Part shown: positions 1 through 40,565 of the stretch, in pieces
How positions within the stretch are numbered: the stretch's first letter is position 1
How the letters are laid out: each line of letters starts with the position of its first letter
Origin: a virus
DNA: 40,565 nucleotides
Virus record (IMG/VR): IMGVR_UViG_3300033148_006072
Span: 1 to 40,565 of that record
Strand: one strand, 5' to 3'
Position numbers and translations under genes: made by a program
Notes under the pieces: model-generated
What the model was told of the DNA's origin: nothing
Databases searched by the model: none
The model's input: only the letters and a program-made list of their open reading frames with translations

Positions 1-114
1 AGTAGACGGAGGTATTGTCTGGTGTCGTTGCCCAGTTCGGCGATACGGTGGCGATCTGTGATGACCCCGTGTATGCGGTGATCAGCCGTGTCTGAGCTTC
101 CCCGGTCCCGGTAG
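1..114. repeat. Terminal direct repeat, left copy (circular-map overlap)
   Basis: The first 114 bases are identical to the last 114 (40452-40565). Removing one copy and joining the ends keeps a minus-strand tail gene in frame across the junction, so this is most simply the overlap left by assembling a circular or circularly permuted genome. A true short terminal repeat cannot be excluded, but its position inside a coding sequence favours an assembly overlap. Confidence 0.95.
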
Positions 115-1111
115 TGATGCGAACCAACTGCCCTTTGTAGAAATCATTCACCGCGCTCGCCGTAGCGGCTAAAGTTATGGACCCGGCAGCTCCTGCCTGC
201 GCCATTCCGTGCGAGGTGTGCCCGATGTCCTTGCTTGCTACGATCACAAATTCGCTATCGTTAGCTGGATTGATGAGCCATGTCCCGCGAATGCTTGCGA
301 CTTTCGATGAACCATCGTAATTCGTGATCGTTTTGGTCTGCCCTTCGCCCGTACCTCCAACCAAGATAATCACGTCACCAATATACATCTGATCTGTCGC
401 CGATGCCCCCACATCCAGGGTGATTGCATTAGCCGACCCGGCTTGTGCCGTCTCCGCCCGAACCACCATAGCATCCAATTGCCGTAATCGTCGGCCCGCA
501 CTCGTAGCATCGTTGTGAGTTGCTCCGGTCAACGGCTCATCCCACACCAGATCAACGAGATCGGCCGCAGCTATCGTATCGACGCTGTTCGTACCACGTC
601 CTTGCTCAAGTGCATTCACGGTGAGCCGACTCACGCCTGCGTCGCTCTCAACCAGCTCATTAAGTAGCGCGGTCCCTACCCCCGGTTTACTTGCCGGGTC
701 ATAGTCCGCTGCCAGGAGGTGGTCAAGGTGGATAGCTACCAAGGCTGCAGTCACTACTGCTAAGTTAACACCAATCGAGAACCCGCCAATCCAAGCGTTG
801 ACGGTCCCGCCATCAATGGTCACTCCCTCAATCCGCACGATAAATCGTGAACCCGAAGAGTAGAACCCGGCGTCGTCGTTGTTGGTCAAATCAACCGTAA
901 CCCAATGAGACCCGGCGATTCCATCCACGTCTATGTCAACAGCAATACCCAAGAAGCTCGTTCGTTGCGTCAAGCTAGCGTCTTTATAGACATAGACATC
1001 CGTGTTCGCCAAATTGGTCACGGTGACCGAAACCGATGGGTCATCGCTTGTAAAGGCGTTGACCGGAATCATTACCGTCTCGGTCCCTGTAAAATCGCCC
1101 GCGTTGTACAT
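1..1111 (-). CDS. Fibre-like virion protein, N-terminal part (continues across the circular junction to 39928)
   Basis: Starts at ATG 1111 after a strong GGAGGAGAGG site, 9 bases beyond the preceding stop. It stays open to the left edge and continues at 40451-39928, giving 544 aa in all. The N-terminal 110 or so residues look like a beta-rich domain (MYNAGDFTGTETVMIPV). The middle carries a helical segment with WDEPL and RRLRQLDAM. Two tandem beta repeats of about 85 residues follow, each with a GTGE(G/A)QT motif followed by an I-T-x-Y segment; repeats of this kind are common in phage tail and fibre proteins. It sits after the beta-helix gene in the GC-rich host-interaction segment. Exact function is unknown; a fibre or adsorption role is inferred. 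Confidence 0.75.
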   Translation of the reverse strand, partial: MYNAGDFTGTETVMIPVNAFTSDDPSVSVTVTNLANTDVYVYKDASLTQRTSFLGIAVDIDVDGIAGSHWVTVDLTNNDDAGFYSSGSRFIVRIEGVTIDGGTVNAWIGGFSIGVNLAVVTAALVAIHLDHLLAADYDPASKPGVGTALLNELVESDAGVSRLTVNALEQGRGTNSVDTIAAADLVDLVWDEPLTGATHNDATSAGRRLRQLDAMVVRAETAQAGSANAITLDVGASATDQMYIGDVIILVGGTGEGQTKTITNYDGSSKVASIRGTWLINPANDSEFVIVASKDIGHTSHGMAQAGAAGSITLAATASAVNDFYKGQLVRITTGTGEAQTRLITAYTGSSQIATVSPNWATTPDNTSVY

Positions 1112-1120
1112 CCTCTCCTC

Positions 1121-2143
1121 CTATCCTACCGGCCCGCCGAAAGGTCCAACAAGCGGCCCTTGTAATGCTCCCGTCGGTGCGTTCCCGCCTGCTGCTGCTA
1201 TCTCATCCGGCCCAATGTCGCACGTTGTACCGCTGCGTGTAGTACCGTCAATGTCAGGCGTGGGTACCTTGGCATCACTGCCGGGGCCGATGCCATTGTC
1301 CTCCATATTGCCGCCCGTTTTCGCGGTATAGTCGCCGTTCGATGCGTCAACAAACTCATTAGCCCAACTCGCGCTAAGTGGTTGCACATTGGTCGTTTCC
1401 GAGTGAATGGTATTAAGGTCGTCGTCGGCACAATTATATTGAACAGTTGCGGTGCCCGCGTTGTCAATATCCTCGCCGCCGCCGTTGTTCATCAGTGCGT
1501 TATTTTTGATTACTGCAGTCACACCAGCCTGTAGCTCAATCAGGTCAACCGCGCCGTTTATGATGTTGTTGTAGATGTCTGCCGTGAGGCCGGATGTGTT
1601 CATCAATATCCCACGGGACTTGCACCCGTGGATGATGTTGCCCATGATGTCGATGTCGGTATCGGCATCGTTGACTGTTATTCCACGATTACTGTTTACA
1701 CCGTTGGACCGCACATAATTGCGCGATATTGTCACGTCGCCCGCCGCCGTTTGCGAGTCAATGGTGATGCAATTGTCACCCGACCCCGATGAATAAACGA
1801 TCTCAATCTGAATATTGTCAACCGTCACAAGGTCGTCGTAAATGAATAGCGCATCCGCATCGGTCACAGATAGCCGATAGCGTCCGGTATCCCATCCAGT
1901 CTTGGCGGCCTCGTCTCCTGGAGTCGGTTTGATTGTCAGTCGATGCGTGTTGGCGCAGCCATTGATTGTCGTGGCCGTGGTATCTGCCGCAGCACCCGAC
2001 AGCCATAAAGTAGAGGCTTCGGTCAAACTTCCGGTAAGCTGTGACTCGGCATAGGCAAACGTCGCCCACGCCCCCGCACCAGCCGAGCCGCCGTGACCAG
2101 CGTCGTCCGTGCCTAAATCTGTATCGACGTAGAAATTAGCCAC
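1121..2143 (-). CDS. Right-handed beta-helix (pectate-lyase-like) protein
   Basis: 340 aa, starting at GTG 2143 behind TAGGGGAAGAC, 8 bases after the upstream stop. The centre (about residues 90-230) is a run of short strands with Asn- and Ile-rich turns (ISRNYVRSNG, DIMGNIIHGC, ADIYNNIING, VIKNNALMNN). This is the pattern of parallel beta-helix proteins of the pectate-lyase or Beta_helix fold, which phages use as spikes or depolymerases. The C-terminus is Gly/Pro-rich (GPLVGPFGGPVG). There is no signal peptide. The gene lies in a markedly GC-rich block with the fibre-like gene, consistent with exchangeable host-range genes. Carbohydrate binding or cleavage is inferred from the fold only; no catalytic residues were identified. 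Confidence 0.65.
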   Translation of the reverse strand: MANFYVDTDLGTDDAGHGGSAGAGAWATFAYAESQLTGSLTEASTLWLSGAAADTTATTINGCANTHRLTIKPTPGDEAAKTGWDTGRYRLSVTDADALFIYDDLVTVDNIQIEIVYSSGSGDNCITIDSQTAAGDVTISRNYVRSNGVNSNRGITVNDADTDIDIMGNIIHGCKSRGILMNTSGLTADIYNNIINGAVDLIELQAGVTAVIKNNALMNNGGGEDIDNAGTATVQYNCADDDLNTIHSETTNVQPLSASWANEFVDASNGDYTAKTGGNMEDNGIGPGSDAKVPTPDIDGTTRSGTTCDIGPDEIAAAGGNAPTGALQGPLVGPFGGPVG

Positions 2144-2151
2144 GTCTTCCC

Positions 2152-2649
2152 CTACATCCCCGAATCCCGCAAGTCCGAACCCGGCGGGACTGTCCCCGGT
2201 AGTGGCACGGGGATATAGACGAAAGGGACGCCCGAAGCAGTATCGGCCGCCCTTGAACTTGCAAGGAAACCCTCGTAATCTATCCGGTTCCCCCCGCCGT
2301 CGATATGCGTACCAGCCACGGCAACGCCCCAGCTACGCCGGTCAGCAAAGTCCAACAATGCCGACTCTTCACCGTTTTCATCTGCGGTAAACGGGTCAGT
2401 GTCAATCCACGTCACCCGAAGATCCATCAATCCAAGCGCGGGCGGTGGGGCAAACCCGAGCAGCTCGGTATCCCATACATAGATGCGATACTCCACCGTG
2501 TCACCGGCGAGAAAAGGTCCATCGTTCGGCGTTGTGGCCGCAGGGGTCCACATTACCGTCGGCGTCGAGTTGTAGTAGATCGGCTCTTGCGCCATCCCCG
2601 CGCAAGCCACAAAGGCCAACGCGAAGAGGATGAGTAGTGCGCGCCTCAT
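2152..2649 (-). CDS. Secreted protein with signal peptide, unknown function
   Basis: 165 aa. The N-terminus (MRRALLILFALAFVACAGMAQ) is a clear signal peptide: two Arg, a hydrophobic core and a possible cleavage after AGMA. A cysteine at residue 16 (FVAC) loosely resembles a lipobox, so a lipoprotein is possible. The rest looks like a beta-rich extracellular domain (VEYRIYVWDTELLG). The start overlaps the stop of the preceding 49-aa gene as ATGA. Its place in the lysis/small-membrane-protein cassette would fit an outer-membrane or periplasmic role, but I do not recognise the family. Confidence 0.55.
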   Translation of the reverse strand: MRRALLILFALAFVACAGMAQEPIYYNSTPTVMWTPAATTPNDGPFLAGDTVEYRIYVWDTELLGFAPPPALGLMDLRVTWIDTDPFTADENGEESALLDFADRRSWGVAVAGTHIDGGGNRIDYEGFLASSRAADTASGVPFVYIPVPLPGTVPPGSDLRDSGM

Positions 2650-2795
2650 TTTTCACCTTCCTTTGTGTTCTTCATGATTTCTACAACAGCTACGATGAAC
2701 GCCTGAAGCGCCTTGCTGTCGCCCCGCCCTCGAATAATGGCAAACACCACCACTCCGGCCAAGATTGTGATTGAAGCCAATTCAGTCCAGTCCAT
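2646..2795 (-). CDS. Small membrane protein (49 aa)
   Basis: ATG 2795 lies one base after the TAG of the upstream gene, and the AGGAGG site lies inside that gene's last codons. The protein starts MDWTELASITILAGVVVFAI, a single N-terminal transmembrane segment, then a short helical tail ending KNTKEGEK. Its TGA overlaps the next ATG (ATGA). Size, topology and location fit a small holin-like or lysis accessory protein, but the sequence is too short to assign. Confidence 0.6.
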   Translation of the reverse strand: MDWTELASITILAGVVVFAIIRGRGDSKALQAFIVAVVEIMKNTKEGEK

Positions 2796-2796
2796 T

Positions 2797-3018
2797 CTAT
2801 CCTCCTATATTTGCTTTGACTCGTTCTACAAAATCTGAAGTGTCTGTAAACTTTTGAGCCCTAGGCTTCTCAATTACCACAGTTGTCTTTTTAACCCGTT
2901 TCTTAGATAATCGGCCTATCCAAAAGCCGACAATCACTGTGACCCCCCAAATCATCCACTCAAAATAAGCCCAGCCAATTATAATAATTATCGTCTTTTG
3001 CAAGCCTTCAAACTCCAC
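2797..3018 (-). CDS. Small membrane protein, lysis-cassette member
   Basis: 73 aa. Hydrophobic stretches at about residues 9-20 (TIIIIIGWAYF) and 22-35 (MIWGVTVIVGFWIG) form one or two membrane spans, followed by a basic segment (RLSKKRVKKTT) and a polar tail. ATG 3018 is preceded by AAGGAGGGAAAAGTGG. This is the composition of a holin or holin partner. It lies between two other small membrane genes and is AT-rich compared with the GC-rich genes on both sides. Confidence 0.55.
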   Translation of the reverse strand: MEFEGLQKTIIIIIGWAYFEWMIWGVTVIVGFWIGRLSKKRVKKTTVVIEKPRAQKFTDTSDFVERVKANIGG

Positions 3019-3043
3019 TTTTCCCTCCTTATAATAGGATGCA

Positions 3044-3316
3044 TCATCCCCTAATATCCTTTATGTAACTCAAAGCTTTTTCACCGAATATGAGGACAAT
3101 TGTAGTAGCCAACCAAGCCCATGCTGGGAGGAGTCCCTTCATCAATAAATAAGTAGCTGTAACAAACCCGATCCCCTTCATAGAGAGCAATTTCGTTATG
3201 ACAGTAATGATCCGCTTCGGAAGCGTCTTCAAAAGCTCCGAAAACGTCTTCTCCATAAGAGGGTCCAAGCCAATCTCCTTCGCTCGTTTACCTGAATTAA
3301 GTTCTTCCATAGTCAT
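3044..3316 (-). CDS. Holin-like membrane protein
   Basis: 90 aa from ATG 3316, chosen because GGGAG lies 8 bases upstream and the ATG follows the previous stop by two bases; an upstream in-frame GTG at 3340 would overlap the previous gene and lacks a good site. It has a charged amphipathic N-terminus, then two hydrophobic segments (IGFVTATYLLMKGLL and AWLATTIVLIFG) and a short basic end. This small multi-span architecture next to a candidate lysin fits a holin; function is inferred. Confidence 0.5.
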   Translation of the reverse strand: MTMEELNSGKRAKEIGLDPLMEKTFSELLKTLPKRIITVITKLLSMKGIGFVTATYLLMKGLLPAWAWLATTIVLIFGEKALSYIKDIRG

Positions 3317-3318
3317 AC

Positions 3319-3843
3319 TTAAATCTCCCAACTCGGCCACGGCGGAACATCAAGATACACCCGCTCCCGTGCACCCATCACCCGCCGGATCACGTCACCG
3401 AGTGCAACGGCATCATCCGGCGTATCAGTGTTGATACACCCGAGCGTCGTGTTGCTGCGGACAAGCTCACCACCAGACCGGACCCGCGAATAGTGCGCCC
3501 CATATCCACGAGCTCGGAATCGTGCGCCGGTCGGATGGTCGTAGCAGCCATCCTTGTCGAGTTGCCAGTACTCCAACCACTGCCACGCATTCGTCGCGAT
3601 GAACACCGGTGAGTACACGCTCGTTGGCAACTTGTCGATAACCTCAGTTATTAGCCACCGCCCACACGGAAACGGCCGCGGTTGATACGGTGTCCCGGTC
3701 GGTCGGACATGACCGTCTTGCTCGTACAACACCTCACTCGTGAGCCGCCACCCGTTCACCTCGTTGCGCACAATGCACGATGCGGGGATTGTCAAGCCGA
3801 GACCGACGATCGCTTTGCCGGTGAAGCTGAGAACCTCAATCAT
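3319..3843 (-). CDS. Candidate endolysin with YkuD-like (L,D-transpeptidase-type) active-site motif
   Basis: 174 aa from ATG 3843, which overlaps the upstream TGA as ATGA. The C-terminal half has GYGAHYSR (His117) followed by NTTLGCINTD (Cys136) and DDAVALGDVI. This resembles the H...S/T-x-G-C-[IV]-[RN]...D arrangement of YkuD-fold L,D-transpeptidases and related peptidoglycan enzymes. No signal peptide is seen, so export would need a holin, and holin-like genes lie on both sides. The gene is GC-rich, unlike 2797-3316 next to it. It could instead be a non-lytic relative of the fold; assignment rests on the motif and location only. Confidence 0.5.
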   Translation of the reverse strand: MIEVLSFTGKAIVGLGLTIPASCIVRNEVNGWRLTSEVLYEQDGHVRPTGTPYQPRPFPCGRWLITEVIDKLPTSVYSPVFIATNAWQWLEYWQLDKDGCYDHPTGARFRARGYGAHYSRVRSGGELVRSNTTLGCINTDTPDDAVALGDVIRRVMGARERVYLDVPPWPSWEI

Positions 3844-4103
3844 CCCGCGCCCCCGGTCAACCACTGCATAAACGCCGCTTTGATTCCGTCCAGCAATCCA
3901 ATAGACTGAGCCCCAACCGTGGCCGCGATGACGACTGTCAGCACGGCCGTGCGCCGGGGGTTTTGATCGTTGCGAGTGGACACCTTTTTCTCCACCGCCT
4001 CCATGCGACCGACAAGCCCTACGGCTCCATTGGTGCCATACATCCCGTACCACACCTGATCAAGCGTTTCTTTTTGCGTTGCCGGTTTCTTCGATGTTGC
4101 CAT
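3840..4103 (-). CDS. Small tail-anchored membrane protein (holin/XhlA-like architecture)
   Basis: 87 aa. The N-terminus is polar and helical (MATSKKPATQKETLDQVW), followed by a short heptad-like stretch (VGRMEAVEKKVSTRND) and one transmembrane segment near the C-terminus (TAVLTVVIAATVGAQSIGLL). This soluble-helix-plus-C-terminal-span layout resembles hemolysin XhlA-type holin accessory proteins. It immediately precedes the candidate lysin and overlaps it by ATGA, so the two are probably translated together. A GGGGGG run 2 bases before the ATG is an unusual ribosome-binding context. Confidence 0.5.
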   Translation of the reverse strand: MATSKKPATQKETLDQVWYGMYGTNGAVGLVGRMEAVEKKVSTRNDQNPRRTAVLTVVIAATVGAQSIGLLDGIKAAFMQWLTGGAG

Positions 4104-24198: not shown

Positions 24199-24402
24199 AT
24201 GGAAAGCGACAACGATAATAAACTTTATCCATTGGGTTCGAATACAATTATCATAGACTTAAAATATGAAAACGCCTATGGTCAAAAGATCTACGCATTA
24301 AAGGTTGATATAAACAAATTCAGTATAGTGATTTATCAAGGGCCTTATGGCGACTGTATGGAAGTATATCAAAGAATCATCGAAGGTGCTTTATGCACTT
24401 AA
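24199..24402 (+). CDS. Small unknown protein (67 aa)
   Basis: Follows the previous stop by one base. Beta-rich (TIIIDLKYENAYGQKIYALK, KFSIVIYQGPYGDCMEVYQR). The weak ribosome binding site suggests coupled translation. No family recognised. Confidence 0.5.
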   Translation: MESDNDNKLYPLGSNTIIIDLKYENAYGQKIYALKVDINKFSIVIYQGPYGDCMEVYQRIIEGALCT

Positions 24403-24662
24403 TGAACATTCAAAGCGTTTTCTATGGTTGGATTGGTTCTTTATGTATTATTGCATCTATTACTTGGCTTGTAGGTCGTGCTAGTCTTCGTCGAACATTT
24501 GAAAAGGCCGTACGGGCTATAGAAATCATCAAAGAACAAAAATCTGAGATTTCGTATCTGACAAAAGAAAATGAAGCATTGGAAAAAAGAAATAGTGATA
24601 TGAAGCGTGCTCTTAATGGTATCGTATCATTAGCCTCGACCAGTACAACAATAGGGGGATAA
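24393..24662 (+). CDS. Membrane-anchored coiled-coil protein
   Basis: 89 aa. One transmembrane segment (VFYGWIGSLCIIASITWLVG, about residues 9-28), then a basic turn and a helical coiled coil (KAVRAIEIIKEQKSEISYLT, KENEALEKRNSDMKRALNG). ATG 24393 has GAAGG 6 bases before it; ATG 24402 (TAATG) is possible. Topology suggests an inner-membrane early protein, for example a superinfection-exclusion or takeover factor, but this is a guess. Confidence 0.55.
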   Translation: MHLMNIQSVFYGWIGSLCIIASITWLVGRASLRRTFEKAVRAIEIIKEQKSEISYLTKENEALEKRNSDMKRALNGIVSLASTSTTIGG

Positions 24663-38700: not shown

Positions 38701-38895
38701 CTATTCCGTATTGATATAGTACCCACCATGACCATCTGGTATCAATTCAATTTTACTGATTGTATCTCCTTTACCAAAAGTCACAGTCTCGAGTCGCTGA
38801 GCGCCTTCCGCTAAAAGACCATAAGCAAAATCTTCATTGCTGTCGTGCAGATCCGCAAGTACTTTCAGGCCCTCTTGCCACTGTTCATTTGTCAT
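38701..38895 (-). CDS. Small unknown protein, last gene of leftward block
   Basis: 64 aa from ATG 38895, which overlaps the stop of the 169-aa coiled-coil frame (ATGACAAATGA). No ribosome binding site stands before it, so reinitiation after that stop is likely and argues that the 169-aa frame is translated. Starts MTNEQWQEGLKVLADLHDSN; no family recognised. Confidence 0.5.
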   Translation of the reverse strand: MTNEQWQEGLKVLADLHDSNEDFAYGLLAEGAQRLETVTFGKGDTISKIELIPDGHGGYYINTE

Positions 38896-39394
38896 AAAAC
38901 GTACCAACCAAGAAACCGACCACTAATCCTCCAGCAAATCCGCTCGCTACTCCAATTATCATCCTACGAACCATCTGCTTCTTGTAATTCTCGAACATAC
39001 TCGAGAGCTCTATTAATCTCTGTTGCAAGCTCTCTGCCAAGTTGTTCAACGTCGATAATTCCATCTGCAAGTCCGATACTAAGTCGTGTGACCTCATCAA
39101 CGATTTCGAGAGCTCTGAGATTGTTTGTTGTAAGAGTATCAACTCTGCTTGCGAGCTCTCCAACTCTTGTGTCAGCTGTTGCAAGCTCTTCAGTGAGATT
39201 GACGACTGTAGCTTCAAGTCTTCGATGCGATTCTGTAATAGCCGCACTTTCAAAGAGAGCCTGATTAAGCTCAGCCTCAATTCTTCGAGCTTGGACCCGT
39301 TCTCTATTGATTGTGGGAATAGTGAGAATGGTAATAATAATGAGAGCACAAGCAAGACCGATACTAGACGTACGCCAAATTTTGGAAACTCCAT
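38885..39394 (-). CDS. Coiled-coil protein with N-terminal signal and C-terminal membrane span (spanin-like, overlapping frame)
   Basis: 169 aa in the +1 frame relative to the 144-aa gene. N-terminus RLVSVLLVLSLLLPFSLFPQ is signal-like; residues 36-135 are a Leu/Ser/Glu-rich coiled coil (KLEELRLSLIRLSLKVRLLQ). The C-terminus is a transmembrane segment with Gly pattern (MIIGVASGFAGGLVVGFLVG) coded outside the overlap. ATG 39394 is 4 bases after ATG 39398, with AGGAG 13 bases away. Its place at the end of the lysis region suggests a spanin or membrane tether. The C-terminal span and coupled downstream gene support real translation. Confidence 0.55.
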   Translation of the reverse strand: MEFPKFGVRLVSVLLVLSLLLPFSLFPQSIENGSKLEELRLSLIRLSLKVRLLQNRIEDLKLQSSISLKSLQQLTQELESSQAELILLQQTISELSKSLMRSHDLVSDLQMELSTLNNLAESLQQRLIELSSMFENYKKQMVRRMIIGVASGFAGGLVVGFLVGTFYDK

Positions 39395-39398
39395 TCAT
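38964..39398 (-). CDS. i-spanin-like membrane coiled-coil protein
   Basis: 144 aa. Residues 11-30 are a transmembrane segment (TSSIGLACALIIITILTIPT), followed by a long coiled coil (RRIEAELNQALFESAAITES, VVNLTEELATADTRVGELAS). This N-terminal anchor plus periplasmic coiled coil is the i-spanin layout of Gram-negative phages. ATG 39398 has AGAGGAG 9 bases upstream. The 169-aa frame overlaps it for 431 bases, so the locus may work as an i-spanin/partner pair, as Rz/Rz1 do. Confidence 0.6.
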   Translation of the reverse strand: MNGVSKIWRTSSIGLACALIIITILTIPTINRERVQARRIEAELNQALFESAAITESHRRLEATVVNLTEELATADTRVGELASRVDTLTTNNLRALEIVDEVTRLSIGLADGIIDVEQLGRELATEINRALEYVRELQEADGS

Positions 39399-39417
39399 TA
39401 TACCCTGCTCCTCTTGA

Positions 39418-39714
39418 TTAAGGTAACGAAACTACTGATACTTCTTCTGCTTCAGCGGTTCTCTTAAGATAAAGCTTACCTGAAGAGATAGCCACAGAAG
39501 TAAATAATCCTACATGAGATTCTCCATCTGCCATGGAGCCAATAACAGCATCCCAGTTGGCTGTCATTGCAGTGACAACGGTTGTGCCTTTTGCAATGAT
39601 CATTCCCCAAGGACCTCCAGAAATAGTACCTGCTCCATCTTGTGTATCTGTTCCATAGTCACCACCCCATGCCAAAGTCTTTCTGGCGGCATGAATTTCA
39701 CCTCTATTACTCAT
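39418..39714 (-). CDS. Small virion-like protein of unknown function
   Basis: 98 aa; ATG 39714 overlaps the previous stop (ATGA). GGPWGMIIAKGTTVVTAM, SMADGESHVGLFTSVAISSG and KLYLKRTAEAEEV look like a small beta domain found in phage virion genes of unknown role. It stands between the fibre-like gene and the spanin-like locus. Confidence 0.5.
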   Translation of the reverse strand: MSNRGEIHAARKTLAWGGDYGTDTQDGAGTISGGPWGMIIAKGTTVVTAMTANWDAVIGSMADGESHVGLFTSVAISSGKLYLKRTAEAEEVSVVSLP

Positions 39715-39927: not shown

Positions 39928-40565
39928 TTATGGTCCTGACTCAATTTCACCAAACGTCGCCGTTCCGGCAACATCTGATACTGTAGCTTTCTGATCAACT
40001 GTCGCGGCATCATCGGCCATTAGCGACCAAGTTGTTGCGGTCTGCGTTTTCAAGTTTCTAAAAGCTTTGTAGAGATAGTCGATCTTGGTCATGGCATCGG
40101 GATTCACTGGAGCTGCTCCTTGCCCCGGCTCCCCTCTCACGTCATCAAGTAGCGCGAGTATCGCCGCAACTTCTGTGTCGATGTACGAAGCCACATCGAT
40201 GAGGTTATCCTTGATCGTCGCCCCGGACCCAAGGTCAGACGGCGTTCCCAATCTGGTTTCGATCTGATCAACATTGGTGTCGATGATATCCTGTTTCGCT
40301 TCAGTCGCGAGTAGGGCGTGTGCCGTATCCATCTCGGCTTTCGTCGGGCCACCATAGTCGCTTAGCGCCGTATCGCATGCAGCATTGATCGCGTCGGTTG
40401 CGTCGCCGCCCTCGATCAATCCAACGTCGGCACGGGCCCCGTTAGCCGTGTAGTAGACGGAGGTATTGTCTGGTGTCGTTGCCCAGTTCGGCGATACGGT
40501 GGCGATCTGTGATGACCCCGTGTATGCGGTGATCAGCCGTGTCTGAGCTTCCCCGGTCCCGGTAG
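39928..40565 (-). CDS. Fibre-like virion protein, C-terminal part (continues from 1111 across the junction)
   Basis: Joined with 1-1111 after removing one copy of the terminal repeat, this makes one 544-aa frame. This part starts after the second 85-residue repeat (YYTANGARADVGLIEGG). It carries a helical stalk (TDAINAACDTALSDYGGPTK, AEMDTAHALLATEAKQDIID, EVAAILALLDDVRGEPGQGA) and a short tip (KIDYLYKAFRNLKTQTATTW). A helical stalk after beta repeats resembles trimeric fibre architecture. Stop TAA at 39928. Confidence 0.75.
   Translation of the reverse strand, partial: TGTGEAQTRLITAYTGSSQIATVSPNWATTPDNTSVYYTANGARADVGLIEGGDATDAINAACDTALSDYGGPTKAEMDTAHALLATEAKQDIIDTNVDQIETRLGTPSDLGSGATIKDNLIDVASYIDTEVAAILALLDDVRGEPGQGAAPVNPDAMTKIDYLYKAFRNLKTQTATTWSLMADDAATVDQKATVSDVAGTATFGEIESGP
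40452..40565. repeat. Terminal direct repeat, right copy
   Basis: Exact copy of bases 1-114; see left copy. Unique genome length after joining is about 40,451 bp. Confidence 0.95.

Follow-up and report, generated by a model that had tools for sequence, protein, structure and literature searches.

A probable dual-coded pair of membrane coiled-coil proteins near the end of a phage late operon

The window, that is, the whole 40,565-base stretch of DNA analysed here, carries an exact direct terminal repeat of 114 bases at 1-114 and 40452-40565, and hence most likely represents a complete genome map that closes into a circle; the junction of its ends is spanned by a tail-protein gene. Its genes include matches to a P22-like portal, a large terminase, a scaffold, the head closure protein Hc3, a DNA-transfer protein and a phage DNA polymerase, which indicates a short-tailed phage with a podophage-type map. 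In the measured genes of 1-4053 and 39928-40565, which include tail-fibre, beta-helix and possible lysis genes, G+C is 0.54-0.60 (GC3 0.56-0.66), against 0.36-0.49 in the rest, and these two parts look like a module from another background. The late genes lie on the minus strand. Near the end of their operon, which continues 3' with just one gene of 64 aa before a convergent gene, two long reading frames, here called A and B, occupy nearly the same nucleotides. The features of the locus, from the open reading frame list and from hydropathy, are as follows.

39418..39714, minus strand: preceding late gene, 98 aa, function unassigned (ORF list)
39408..39413, minus strand: ribosome-binding site GAGGAG, anti-SD duplex about -8.3 kcal/mol
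38964..39398, minus strand: frame B, 144 aa, N-terminal TM-like segment and coiled coil (ORF list)
38885..39394, minus strand: frame A, 169 aa, hydrophobic N-terminus, 15-heptad coil and C-terminal Gly-zipper TM (ORF list)
38964..39394, minus strand: region common to A and B, 431 bp, A being the +1 frame of B
39314..39367, minus strand: A residues 10-27, signal-like or TM hydrophobic segment (hydropathy)
39309..39362, minus strand: B residues 13-30, N-terminal TM-like segment (hydropathy)
38906..38959, minus strand: A residues 146-163, TM span beyond the overlap (hydropathy)
38701..38895, minus strand: next gene, 64 aa, its ATG overlapping A's stop by 11 nt (ORF list)

The ATGs of B and A stand 4 bases apart (ATGAATGG), and the overlap takes in about 99% of B. 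Two in-frame stops lie immediately 5' of A's ATG, which makes 39394 the earliest possible start of A. The spacing from GAGGAG is 9 nt for the ATG of B and 13 nt for that of A, so that B is better placed for ribosome binding. The ATG of the 64-aa gene, at 38895, overlaps A's stop (ATGACAAATGA), and this gene is probably translationally coupled to A. The first-pass annotation of this DNA had described the 431-base overlap, with starts 4 bases apart, and the better-placed site of the 144-aa frame, and both are confirmed at 39398-38964 and 39394-38885. It had also held that the next gene overlaps A's stop and has no ribosome-binding site; the overlap is there, and so is a weak match (-4.7 kcal/mol).

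The predicted anatomy agrees with that annotation as well, which gave B an N-terminal membrane anchor plus coil, and A a signal-like N-terminus, a coil and a glycine-patterned span outside the overlap. Single-sequence AlphaFold2 models return B as one helix (residues 2-142, pLDDT 94.7) and A as a short helix (6-20) followed by a long one (30-167; pLDDT 77.0). The coil of A keeps a single heptad register across about 15 heptads, with 81% hydrophobic residues at a/d positions against 21% at other positions. Its C-terminal span lies 3' of B's stop, within frame A only, and the tail carries a glycine zipper with perfect i+4 spacing (G148, G152, G156, G160, G164; GxxxGxxxGxxxGxxxG). A contains no Cys and no Trp; the sole Cys of B, C17, falls within its TM segment.

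Each frame is open well past chance given the protein encoded by the other. The probability that A stays open given the B protein is 2.9e-9 with genome codon usage and 5.7e-4 with the most favourable usage tried, that of the major head protein gene; in the reverse direction, B stays open given the A protein with a probability of 5.1e-8, at most 2.9e-4. Moreover, 1053 windows of 143 codons taken from 34 other ORFs of this genome all have at least three stops in each same-strand alternative frame; A has none. This openness goes together with one peculiarity of B: at its NTN (LIVF) positions, ATG excluded, only 1 of 44 codons ends in a purine, whereas in other genes 24-67% do. Two antisense frames likewise stay open across the pair for about 140 codons (38845-39264 and 39042-39467, plus strand), probably in part because NTR codons are so scarce in B, and openness alone is thus weaker evidence than it appears.

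These data bear on a rival account, in which B is the sole gene across the overlap and is followed by a separate TM peptide of 29 aa, the remainder of frame A owing its openness to chance, through B's avoidance of NTR. The peptide would come from a tiny ORF (MVRRMIIG...) with an ATG at 38974 that overlaps B's stop; this 11-nt overlap, ATGGTTCGTAG, has the same length as the one at the start of the next gene. Codon usage also speaks for such an account, being genome-like along the full length of B (syn +0.18, full +0.30) and atypical in the overlap part of A, which is expected if frame B is ancestral or dominant, or if A is no gene. Shuffling the codon order of B makes an open frame A unremarkable (P0 = 0.17), and synonymous permutations that keep B's own codon usage leave A open in about 16% of cases; the two open antisense frames fit this account too. 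The shuffle, however, preserves B's deficit of NTR codons, and part of the signal is thereby removed from that null. The 1 in 44 NTR codons, which has no match in this genome, is given no explanation if B is the only gene, and the SD of the tiny ORF is poor (-3.0 kcal/mol). The heptad pattern and the hydrophobic N-terminus of A, moreover, exceed what is seen in permutations that preserve B's codon usage, and we consider a sole gene B improbable.

In those permutations, the synonymous codons of B were permuted and only sequences with A still open were retained; the reverse was done for A. The coil score of A is 1.57, against 1.21 +/- 0.07 in 3000 permuted sequences, none of which equals it; the N-terminus of A has a hydrophobicity of 2.19 against 0.83 +/- 0.53 (reached by 20 of 3000). 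For B the reverse permutation gives 0.95 +/- 0.08, against an actual coil score of 1.40 that none of 2000 sequences attained. Applied to 76 frames of other genes, the same test yields z values with a mean of -0.02, an SD of 1.15 and a maximum of 2.7, compared with 5.0 for A. These coil scores come from a COILS-type matrix, and a matrix-free test of the hydrophobic core agrees with them: the single-register core contrast of A is 0.59 against 0.26 under permutation of B, a value reached in 0 of 5000 cases. Taken by thirds of the coil, this signal is spread along the overlap (middle p = 0.008, last p = 0.005), the first third being weak (p = 0.06), and none of the six controls, coiled-coil and other, shows it, two of them being Rz-like genes from relatives. 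A simple Fourier periodicity or hydrophobic-moment measure shows only a modest excess for A (about 5-10%; p ~0.05-0.1). In both frames, therefore, the protein features exceed those that the other frame imposes, and the codon choice suggests that both are kept under selection; dual constraint is demonstrated statistically from a single sequence, all results on A and B having been obtained from one assembled sequence.

How two coils can occupy the same nucleotides is explained by a shared heptad register: the core positions of A and B coincide at the nucleotide level, and it is this that makes the overlap feasible. A core codon NTT of B (Leu/Ile/Val) with the following purine reads as TTR, a core Leu, in A, and an NTC codon of B gives TCN (Ser) in A, placed mostly off core. 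Indeed, among the LIVF codons of B's coil, those ending in T fall at core positions of A in 15 of 18 cases, as against 4 of 13 for those ending in C (Fisher p = 0.0075). The coil of B thus supplies part of A's coil free, through the shared register and the NTT-purine rule, and the choice between T and C adds the remainder.

The same shared register means that a +1 shift anywhere in the overlap keeps the heptad phase, so that a programmed frameshift or an assembly indel is not an absurd rival. The true product would then be B fused to the C-terminal TM of A, with an N-terminal TM, a coil and a C-terminal TM, and the codon signal, which runs in B up to its stop and then in A's tail, would be as expected. 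A frameshift from one frame into the other had been raised as a possibility by the first-pass annotation; it is weakened, since a scan for -1 slippery heptamers (X XXY YYZ) found none in frame A or B. There is also no homopolymer of four or more near B's stop, and the constraint on A along the overlap is left without explanation, so that this reading appears very improbable to us.

We therefore favor a genuine same-strand dual-coding region in which A and B would both be membrane-anchored coils, and we consider this likely. The TM tail of A and the start of the next gene, which is probably coupled to A, lie in frame A only and were counted in its favor; the distance of 13 nt from the SD to A's ATG and the poor codon usage of A were counted against it. 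Long co-directional overlaps annotated in prokaryote genomes are usually errors (PMC2478687). We infer from the sequence that both frames are translated, that the two proteins have the predicted membrane topology, and that they may act late and across the envelope, in a lysis, spanin-like role.

Relatives of this phage were found through the portal (identity up to 63%) and through the DNA polymerase (up to 37%), and neither A nor B is detectable in them; some of those scanned have ordinary-looking Rz-like genes instead. Among the loci scanned, the window's own copy of the overlapping coiled-coil pair is the only one. Peptide-seed searches, which have low sensitivity for coiled coils that evolve fast and from which near-identical records may have been withheld, found no homologues of A, B or neighbouring genes in viral contigs, and none of A or B in bacterial and archaeal genomes or phage GenBank records. 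A degenerate DNA pattern spanning B's stop gave no match either. In PHROG and Pfam, A and B have weak generic coiled-coil matches, which were rejected as family assignments; the Rz-like spanin families phrog_89 and phrog_739 match the coil region of A only, and not significantly (E = 0.26 and 0.78).

Both frames had been called spanin-like, and the pair a possible dual-coded lysis pair. The label suits B, whose predicted TM (13-30) and coil correspond to the anatomy of an i-spanin, with an N-terminal TMD and a periplasmic, often coiled-coil domain. It fails for A: o-spanins and u-spanins are by definition lipoproteins (PMC6139136), and A, having no Cys, can be neither an outer-membrane lipoprotein with a lipobox Cys nor, in spite of its C-terminal TM, a u-spanin. 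Nor does the pair offer the periplasmic Cys for intermolecular disulfides of two-component spanins, which act at lysis by disrupting or fusing the outer membrane, C17 in the TM of B being the only one. Lambda Rz/Rz1 resembles A/B in that two envelope proteins are read from different frames of one stretch, the second gene in the +1 frame, and in that the long partner combines an N-terminal TM with a coiled coil. However, Rz1 is a short Pro-rich lipoprotein, whereas A is helical, contains no Cys, exceeds B in length and overlaps about 99% of it; most embedded o-spanin genes begin 0.4-0.5 of the way along the i-spanin gene and stop at 0.9-1 (PMC6139136). Like A, the unimolecular spanin T1 gp11 has an export-like signal at the N-terminus and a TM at the C-terminus, but A has no lipobox and is coiled coil throughout.

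Of the lysis-pair proposal, dual coding is well supported by the codon-level tests, and the lysis part is no more than a plausible reading of a pair in which A has no Cys. Given dual coding, we regard a lysis role as tentative, with somewhat less than an even chance. Position at the end of the late operon and the N-TM/coil anatomy of B, both common among spanins, argue for it. Alternatively, both frames might be translated with no part in lysis, for instance as a superinfection-exclusion or a virion/ejection membrane pair. This possibility, which overlaps with our preferred reading and competes with the lysis role only, we also rate as a serious one that falls short of probable: A lacks the Cys or lipobox typical of spanins, neither protein has a family match, and the pair follows tail genes, away from a cluster of membrane proteins at 2646-4103. 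That cluster, elsewhere in the late operon, comprises small membrane proteins and a possible endolysin, and is a candidate lysis cluster by inference, having no family match. Two other genes may be mentioned here: 2152-2649 (minus strand), distant from A/B and the sole lipoprotein-like one among the late genes, encodes 165 aa with FVAC as a possible non-canonical lipobox, and 24393-24662 (plus strand) is an 89-aa ORF with an N-terminal TM and a coiled coil, i-spanin-like and not in the late operon.

On the dual-coding reading, a single late mRNA would be translated from two adjacent ATGs into two different rod-like, alpha-helical, membrane-anchored proteins. The N-terminus of B would anchor it in the inner membrane; the hydrophobic N-terminus of A would export or anchor it, with the C-terminal glycine-zipper helix as a second anchor. 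A more specific version, a lysis or envelope pair whose shared-register coils possibly pair with each other and in which the place of a spanin's lipoprotein partner is taken by the glycine-zipper TM protein, seems unlikely to us. We accordingly name A/B a pair of dual-coded membrane coiled coils that probably act late and on the envelope, a spanin-like role being one possibility.

To conclude, if two long structured proteins do overlap almost completely on the same strand, the case would be exceptional; among 715 co-directional overlaps longer than 60 bp surveyed in prokaryote genomes, none was found to be real (PMC2478687). The reading of NTT followed by a purine as a core Leu in both frames provides a simple, testable account of how a gene for one coil can carry a gene for a second. 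This codon rule also suggests that similar pairs might be worth seeking among phages without a recognised spanin, which number 91 of 677 (PMC6139136).
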